From assembly GCF_023698535.1 (NCBI RefSeq), contig NZ_JALJCL010000001.1, positions 1 through 64,000 of the forward strand: a stretch of DNA of 64,000 nt, given 5' to 3'. Source of the stretch: Halorientalis regularis (GTDB taxonomy: Archaea; Halobacteriota; Halobacteria; Halobacteriales; Haloarculaceae). The notes beneath the pieces were generated by a model that saw nothing but the letters and a program-made list of their open reading frames with translations, made no database searches and was not told the origin of the DNA. The translations under genes were made by a program, and so were the position numbers. Below, one piece after another: positions 32,788 to 34,314 of this stretch. Numbering within the stretch: the first letter of the stretch is position 1; each line of letters begins with the position of its first letter.

Positions 32788-33516
32788 ATGGATCTCACCT
32801 GGCACGGTCACGCGACCTGGAGTGTCTCGGTCGGTGACACGGACATCCTGATCGACCCGTTCTTCGACAATCCCAAGACCGACGCCGAGGCCCCCGATTT
32901 CGACCCGGACGTGGTACTCGTGACACACGGCCACGACGACCACGTCGCCGACGTGGGCGAGTACACCGACGCCACGCTCGGCGGGACGCCCGAAGTCGTC
33001 GGCCACCTCGCGGATGCACACGACTTCGCCGAAGACGACGTGGTCGGGTTCAACCTCGGCGGCACCGTCGAGTTCGGCGACGCCTACGTGACGATGCACC
33101 GCGCCGACCACACGAACGGCATGGGCGAGGGCTTCGTCGCCCCGAGCGGCGGCAACTGTGCGGGCTACGTCATCAGCGACACCGTCCCGACGCAGGTGGC
33201 CGACGAGGATTCGACGACGTTCTACCACGCCGGCGACACCGGCCTCATGACCGAGATGCGCGAGGTCATCGGTCCGTACCTGGAACCCGACGCCGCAGCC
33301 CTACCTGTCGGCGACCACTTCACCATGGGCCCGATGCAGGCCGCCATCGCGGCCGACTGGCTTGACGTCGATCACGTCTTCCCGATGCACTACGACACCT
33401 TCCCGCCCATCGAGATCGACACCGACCGGTTCGTCGACGAAGTGGCGGCGACCGACAGTGACGCCGCGGTCCACGTCCTCGACGGCGACGAGTCGGTCGA
33501 TCTGGACGAGCTGTAA
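32788..33516 (+). CDS. UPF0173 metal-dependent hydrolase (metallo-beta-lactamase fold)
   Basis: A 242-residue protein. '[20 protein letters not shown]' is the UPF0173 N-terminus, '[18 protein letters not shown]' is the HxHxDH metal motif, and further ligands lie in '[13 protein letters not shown]', '[13 protein letters not shown]' and '[13 protein letters not shown]'. It is a zinc-dependent hydrolase of unknown substrate, conserved across archaea and bacteria. The ATG at 32788 is preceded by about 60 bp. A T7 run at 33530-33536 follows the stop and could terminate transcription. Confidence 0.92.
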
Positions 33517-33529
33517 CTGAGACGGCGCT

Positions 33530-33536
33530 GTTTTTT
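33530..33536 (+). terminator. T-tract terminator after the UPF0173 gene
   Basis: A run of seven T residues about 14 bp after the TAA stop at 33516, in otherwise GC-rich DNA, is the usual archaeal termination signal. Confidence 0.5.
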
Positions 33537-33634
33537 TCGATGGTGGCGGCGTGTCAGCGACCCCCACTGTCATAAACGACCGTCCATAACCGGCGACACT
33601 ATCAGTGGGGATGGGCGAATTGAGTTAGTTGCTA

Positions 33635-33760
33635 CTTCGGTCGGGGGGTGGGACCGGCGACCGAGGGGGCACCGTGTTACAGGCTTCGGCCTGTCGGACG
33701 ACGCACCATGGGTGGGGACCCAGTTGCCACGTGGGGGTGGCACCGACACGCATCGTCCGC
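33635..33760 (+). ncRNA. Candidate structured small RNA
   Basis: This intergenic segment has dense nested complementarity. Helix 1 pairs 33635-33643 with 33658-33666 (core TCGGTCG/CGACCGA). Helix 2 is a perfect 6-bp UUCG tetraloop hairpin, 33679-33694. Helix 3 pairs 33695-33704 with 33750-33759 (9 of 10 pairs) and encloses hairpins 33709-33722 (TGGGT-GGGG-ACCCA) and 33725-33742 (TGCCAC/GTGGCA). No protein frame is convincing. I did not recognise SRP, RNase P or tRNA signatures. Strand is assumed plus; it could be the 5' leader of the downstream DUF5799 gene or an independent RNA. Confidence 0.4.
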
Positions 33761-33843
33761 CGCGGACTCCGTTTCTTCGTGACCGACCATCGAGCGACGC
33801 GTCCGTGACAACGCTGAAGCCACTCGGCCGCCACACTCGATAC

Positions 33844-34314
33844 ATGGAACACTGGACCGACCGGATCGTCGGCGACCGGATGACGGTCGACCAGCAGTTC
33901 ACCGACCGCGTCGAGTCGTCACCGTTCTCCCGCCAGCAGTGGGGACTGGTCATGACCGCCATCGAATTCGAGATCGAAGAGCCGACCGACGACGACGCGG
34001 CACAGCTCGTCGCCGACACGTCCGCGCTCCCGTCGGTCCTCCCGGAACTGGACTCGATGGACGAACATCCGATGGCCGGGCCAGGCGGTTCGGGCGGACC
34101 GGGTGGACGTGGGGGTGACGGCGATGGTGTGATCGGTGGAATCAAGCAGGCCCTCGGGCTGGGAGGCGGGGGCGCTGACGACGACCTCGACGAGGAGCGA
34201 CTGGCGACGGCCGAGCGGCTGGCCGACGAGTACGCCACGGAGTTACAGGCACACCTCGAAGAGACCGGCCGGTGGAGTACGGTCCGGGCCGCGGCCGCCG
34301 AGTCGGATCAGTAG
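33844..34314 (+). CDS. DUF5799 family protein
   Basis: A 156-residue haloarchaeal protein of unknown function, beginning MEHWTDRIVGDRMTVDQQFT. The N-terminal half ('SSPFSRQQWGLVMTAIEFEI') is the conserved DUF5799 domain. A Gly-rich linker (about residues 75-110) leads to a helical C-terminus 'ATAERLADEYATELQAHLEE'. ATG 33844 is chosen because it gives the conserved start; upstream in-frame codons run into the structured RNA segment. Its stop overlaps the stop of the convergent small gene by 7 bp. Confidence 0.8.
   Translation: MEHWTDRIVGDRMTVDQQFTDRVESSPFSRQQWGLVMTAIEFEIEEPTDDDAAQLVADTSALPSVLPELDSMDEHPMAGPGGSGGPGGRGGDGDGVIGGIKQALGLGGGGADDDLDEERLATAERLADEYATELQAHLEETGRWSTVRAAAAESDQ

Follow-up and report, generated by a model that had tools for sequence, protein, structure and literature searches.

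The locus and its features

The 64,000-nt stretch of Halorientalis regularis DNA that we analysed, referred to throughout as the window, is part of contig C11 in a genome of 4.03 Mb. Within it, a gene for a metal-dependent hydrolase and a gene for a DUF5799 protein are separated by an intergenic segment (33516 to 33844) that is predicted to specify a small RNA, here termed RNA A, whose predicted 175 nt fall inside the sRNA size class of about 50-500 nt. A preliminary description had drawn four stem-loops and an enclosing helix in this segment, and the same elements, at the positions given below, make up its minimum-energy fold. That description had also seen no likeness to tRNA, as was confirmed by ARAGORN, which reports 0 tRNA or tmRNA genes in the window. 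The features of the locus are as follows.

32788..33516, plus strand: upstream gene, metal-dependent hydrolase (beta-lactamase fold)
33572..33596, plus strand: specialised promoter element of RNA A; TATA-like ATAAAC followed by a direct repeat, CCG-N7-CCG, that reaches to the predicted start
33600..33605, plus strand: predicted transcription start region of RNA A, TATCAG; about 28 nt past the TATA-like box, position kept in 9 of 9 sequences
33600..33777, plus strand: predicted small RNA A, about 175 nt; conserved block with variable flanks, matched by the covariance model
33635-33643/33658-33666, plus strand: hairpin P1 of RNA A; loop GGGGGUGGG; all nine sequences have a pair of G tracts there
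33679..33694, plus strand: hairpin P2 of RNA A; UUCG loop in the window copy, variable elsewhere; double change in 4 of 6 pairs
33695-33704/33750-33759, plus strand: closing stem P3 of RNA A, around H3 and H4; 9 of 10 pairs form
33709..33722, plus strand: hairpin H3 of RNA A; GGGG loop
33725..33742, plus strand: hairpin H4 of RNA A; GUGGGG loop; stem nearly invariant; all nine sequences have a G tract in the loop, whose length is 4-6 nt
33735..33751, plus strand: 17-base tail, identical in RNA B of the same genome (see below); contains the unpaired linker CCGACAC
33772..33777, plus strand: possible 3' end of RNA A, T-rich TTTCTT; the six closest sequences have GTTTCTTC or GTTTCTC here
33807..33819, plus strand: separate DUF5799 promoter-like motif GACAACGCTGAAG, upstream of the DUF5799 start
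33844..34314, plus strand: downstream gene, DUF5799 (PF19113)

Conservation and range

RNA A is found in the same place in all eight Halorientalis genomes and in H. pallida, which together provide nine sequences. The segment was recovered by blastn in seven of the eight genomes, the eighth being H. marina, where it holds the same place; covariance model R2, trained with H. marina included, finds it in all eight. Compared with the window copy, the other sequences are on average 83% identical in the promoter (-35 to -1), 81% in P1 and 84% across P3, H3 and H4; over the 39 bases ahead of the promoter the figure is 42%, and in the spacer before DUF5799 it is 56%.

No genus outside Halorientalis gave a match at E<0.01 in searches of 146, 392 and 39 genomes, the first two of them strictly filtered. 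Model R1, which was trained on eight sequences, H. marina not among them, returned seven Halorientalis genomes and one weak match (E 0.21) from 146 genomes of the family under strict filters, a run that missed H. marina (G001), which carries RNA A. R2 returned seven Halorientalis genomes plus five genomes at E 0.05-0.64 from 392 genomes of the order under strict filters, and eight plus one at E 0.74 from 39 relatives under laxer ones. The promoter was not seen by eye at L179, L180 and L181, three of the weak matches from other genera, all of which fall at E 0.05-0.74; L179 holds an AGGU-GGGG-ACCU hairpin. Rfam 15 gave no match at gathering thresholds, at E<=5 on the segment, or at E<=1 on four homologous loci. 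Likewise, a paralogue of the whole of RNA A was not found in its own genome, viral contigs and plasmids contained no match, and a literature search retrieved no Halorientalis sRNA. Judged by these searches, RNA A is probably restricted to the genus.

A pattern search with GCCACN{0,4}GGGGTGGC yielded mostly unrelated palindromes. Palindromes of the type GCCACCCCGGGGTGGC are abundant in some haloarchaeal genomes (G031, G010, G109, G076, G132 and G108); in G031 there were 85 and 68 pattern matches, compared with 0 and 1 for the control, possibly reflecting a dispersed repeat.

Folding energy and covariation

The preliminary description had set the folding energy against shuffled sequences as a refuting test beforehand. 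The energy of the window segment lies within the shuffled range, 22 of 200 dinucleotide shuffles folding equally well (z -1.29), and energy alone would have refuted the claim of a structured RNA on the terms of that description. A 146-nt version was matched by 41 of 200 shuffles (z -0.69) and the G005 orthologue by 178 of 200, and the minus strand of the segment scored slightly better than the plus strand (z -1.68). In GC-rich DNA, folding energy is not decisive.

Comparison among species was more informative. Compensatory changes, which the preliminary description had expected in homologous loci, are present: in a model-fitted alignment, that is, one fitted to the structure, 96% of cells pair and 13 of 34 pairs show a double change, a number equalled by 0 of 500 shuffles. 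The 14 double-change cells come from H. marina (7), G006 (4), G005 (2) and G003 (1). An unfitted MAFFT alignment of eight sequences gave a weaker signal, with a double change in 3 of 35 pairs and 3 of 500 shuffles having as many. The H. marina locus, which was outside the training set of R1, scored 37.2 bits with structure and 16.4 bits with a sequence-only model, so that structure contributes 20.8 bits on an unseen sequence; among 77 loci with the upstream gene it was the sole clear match to R1, the next reaching 16.9 bits. In this species the H3 stem is replaced and a GGGGG loop is retained, and P3 faces an equally stable competitor, a terminator hairpin with TTTT after it (-53.2 against -53.5 kcal/mol). 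The stems of H3 and H4 are uninformative by themselves, since they are nearly invariant.

The structure is conserved and matches no Rfam family, in keeping with the original suggestion of an unknown structured RNA. The arrangement had also been said to look designed; the UUCG hairpin, which gives that impression most strongly, is the least conserved part, both its loop and its stem varying between species. The alignment of RNA A contains nine G-U cells and two A.C cells, and these counts, together with the promoter and the direction of the H. marina terminator, favour the plus strand. An RNA from the minus strand was rejected on the same grounds despite its z of -1.68.

Promoter and transcript boundaries

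All nine Halorientalis sequences conserve the promoter of RNA A, which consists of a TATA-like box and a CCG-N7-CCG repeat, about 28 bases before TATCA or CATCA. Haloarchaeal basal promoter elements have been described (PMC4983044). Between RNA A and DUF5799, H. marina carries a hairpin and T-run terminator and H. salina an insertion. The H. salina insertion (L007) is MITE-like, roughly 110 bases long, with inverted ends CTATAGTAGTC and GGCTACTATAG.

The DUF5799 gene appears to have signals of its own. In 8 of 9 Halorientalis sequences AACGCTGA or AACGCTCA stands in front of it, and in other genera 16 of 24 loci have a GAAACGCTGAT-type motif about 40 bases ahead of its start codon, as counted with a regular expression that was written after the sequences had been seen. 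No RNA A was seen upstream of DUF5799 at these 24 loci. The preliminary description had left the choice between an independent sRNA and a leader of the DUF5799 gene; the former is now favoured and the latter less supported, because RNA A has its own conserved promoter and, in H. marina, a terminator.

A promoter shared with other transcription units

The promoter, and with it a wider set of co-regulated RNAs, had been overlooked in the preliminary description. With one mismatch allowed, the promoter pattern occurs at 31 sites in the eight Halorientalis genomes, and a reversed-pattern control at 0. The sites precede RNA A (8), a second RNA termed RNA B (5), leaders of DUF6230-like genes (8), leaders of CARDB genes (5) and other sequences (5), and two of the last five stand before similar proteins in two species. 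The eight DUF6230-like sites lie 249-279 bases before the gene for a secreted protein whose likeness to DUF6230 falls short of the Pfam cut-off (21.9 bits, with 27.5 required), and their leaders show double changes in 15 of 56 pairs of their fold. The CARDB leaders, also of secreted proteins, are about 220 bases long (five sites; one protein scanned).

Among 29 DUF6230-like loci, a count that leaves aside L244, the promoter element was present upstream within four mismatches in 19 and absent in 10. Of the 19 positive loci, 7 belong to other genera; the rest are the 8 leaders of Halorientalis and 4 additional paralogues from that genus. The shared promoter thus reaches DUF6230-like genes of other genera, and parts of the circuit are therefore wider than RNA A. 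When 146 genomes of the family were searched with a slightly different promoter pattern, 20 gave hits, including 12 from other genera, with the pattern mostly placed ahead of other sequences.

On contig C6 of G000, at about 75-84 kb (L214, L216, L192 and L260), CARDB and DUF6230-like secreted proteins form a cluster in which the shared promoter and a structured leader stand before every member. A conserved leader of another type, about 200 bases long and lacking the shared promoter, is found at other DUF6230-like paralogues (L255, L250, L251 and L253).

RNA B and the G-rich loops

RNA B is a second multi-hairpin RNA (L217; G000, contig C22, near 91.3-91.5 kb). In 5 of 5 genomes it runs head-on to a convergent gene, and for this reason it must stand alone and cannot be a leader. 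In the window's genome, RNAs A and B share an identical 17-mer, GGGTGGCACCGACACGC, and 0 of 200 shuffles gave a shared stretch as long. The unpaired linker reads CCGACAC in both RNAs in three genomes, CCAACAC in A and CCAACTC in B of G007, and CCGCTTC in A and CCAGTTC in B of G005, a partly parallel series. The two RNAs do not have one common fold, as R2, the model of RNA A, misses RNA B; neither RNA B nor the leaders were recognised by it, the best score being 15.2 bits and lying outside a leader. The consensus fold of RNA B has an unfavourable covariation term.

What recurs in the set is a type of loop. Hairpins with a GGGG loop number 17 in RNA A (eight sequences, without H. pallida), 8 in RNA B and 6 in the DUF6230-like leaders, compared with 2.4, 2.0 and 0.8 in shuffles, and 0 of 200 shuffles reach each count; the counts overstate the case, as orthologues do not provide independent cases and hairpins in alternative registers were included. 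Under the same rule no GGGG loop occurs in the CARDB leaders, where an AGUGGG loop is present instead in 5 of 5. In all nine sequences, RNA A carries four tracts of at least three Gs across three loops (P1, H3 and H4), and four further G-rich clusters elsewhere in the window satisfy the same G-run rule. The canonical quadruplex motif (G3+N1-7, four times) is absent from RNA A (0 of 9) and present in 4 of 5 RNA B sequences; the whole window has two such starts. A duplex search of RNA A against RNA B and the leaders found no pairing beyond that of shuffles for RNA A.

Discussion

The segment is best explained, with somewhat better than even confidence and from comparative sequence analysis, as a small RNA, about 175 nt long and standing alone, that would be transcribed from the plus strand under its own promoter, is confined to Halorientalis and forms part of a co-regulated set. 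A single specialised promoter would drive RNA A, RNA B and the mRNAs with long structured DUF6230-like and CARDB leaders, and the hairpins of RNA A would present G-rich loops. That a single partner reads these loops is suggested by the expected production of RNA A together with mRNAs bearing similar hairpins. In the likeliest mechanism, which we hold tentatively, the partner would be an RNA-binding protein that also recognises the leader hairpins, in which case RNAs A and B may act as decoys or co-regulators once the set is switched on. As an alternative to such titration, A and B may both act on the same mRNAs.

Other readings of the segment account for some of the same observations. As a cis-regulatory leader of DUF5799, RNA A would be expected on the same strand, as it is, and near the gene, its predicted end lying 66 nt before the start codon in the window; moreover, the co-regulated DUF6230-like and CARDB genes have long structured leaders behind the same promoter. 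We nonetheless think this role unlikely, given the terminator that precedes DUF5799 in H. marina, the insertion that splits the two in H. salina, the motif that DUF5799 has upstream of its own, and the occurrence of DUF5799 without RNA A in other genera. Nor do we give much credence to a GC-rich spacer with chance hairpins, conserved for another reason such as binding at the DNA level. Such a spacer would agree with an energy within that of shuffles and with nearly invariant H3 and H4 stems, yet it sits poorly with the 20.8 bits that structure adds on the unseen H. marina sequence, with the replacement of stems and retention of G loops in that species, and with the 0 of 500 shuffles in the covariation test. 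That the segment encodes a small protein is very improbable: the open frames of 50-93 codons are as expected for GC-rich DNA and are not alike between species, and indels of one or two bases in loops and linkers shift the frame between close species.

A trans-acting antisense sRNA, whose G-rich loops or 7-nt linker after H4 would base-pair with mRNAs at sites that are C-rich or that match, is a possibility that we hold at modest strength, equal to that of a shared protein partner. RNA A is genus-restricted and syntenic and has its own promoter, like Haloferax sRNA132, and the linkers of A and B alter in step between species, as if one target were matched by both. The linker pattern is based on two changed genomes, however, and RNA A shows no excess complementarity to RNA B or the leaders. 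Binding of the G loops by a shared partner is the mechanism that we carry forward for the stand-alone RNA. A more elaborate form of it would be an archaeal RNA regulon, comprising one promoter class, two G-loop RNAs, G-loop leaders and a shared partner, with the four tracts of RNA A perhaps forming a tertiary G-quadruplex that serves as a salt or potassium switch in the potassium-rich cytoplasm; this version is speculative and rather unlikely as a whole.

The closest precedent is sRNA132 of Haloferax volcanii, of which RNA A is the same kind in range and layout (PMC6560208). As described there, sRNA132 is an intergenic RNA of 138 nt found in one genus at a conserved place between two genes, with its own basal promoter elements and a downstream gene that has its own promoter; it has two predicted stems and a pyrimidine-rich linker, is tied to phosphate starvation and has been proposed to act as an antisense RNA. 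RNA A is likewise intergenic, confined to one genus and conserved in place, with its own promoter and a downstream gene with its own. It differs from sRNA132 in having four hairpins with mostly G-rich loops, the likeness being judged by description and not by sequence, and in a promoter class that also serves another RNA and long leaders.

With respect to the archaeal structured leaders and riboswitches in Rfam, the co-regulated leaders are similarly long structured 5' segments, whereas the window and four homologous loci match no family. In bacteria, CsrB and RsmZ are sRNAs that titrate a protein through several hairpins with like loops (GGA), and the leaders of the target mRNAs have similar hairpins; CsrA is a bacterial protein. 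RNA A resembles such sponges in repeating one loop motif, with three G-tract-loop hairpins in 9 of 9 sequences, but its loops are G tracts and not GGA, and its partner is putative. An RNA G-quadruplex signal has been reported in Haloferax volcanii cells (PMC12873603), and the four loop G tracts of RNA A in 9 of 9 sequences and the canonical motif of RNA B in 4 of 5 recall it to that extent. Unlike a canonical quadruplex, RNA A has its tracts in separate hairpin loops, with no G3+N1-7 motif.

To our knowledge, a partner or mechanism has been established for few archaeal small RNAs. A promoter and a loop type that are common to two small RNAs and to mRNA leaders offer a testable entry point, in that the promoter of the set tells when, and the loops tell with what. 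Were the G loops to bind one protein, the system would be an archaeal counterpart of the bacterial titration systems. RNA A was previously unlisted, and its apparent joint switching with RNA B and with genes for secreted proteins hints at a shared RNA-based control circuit.
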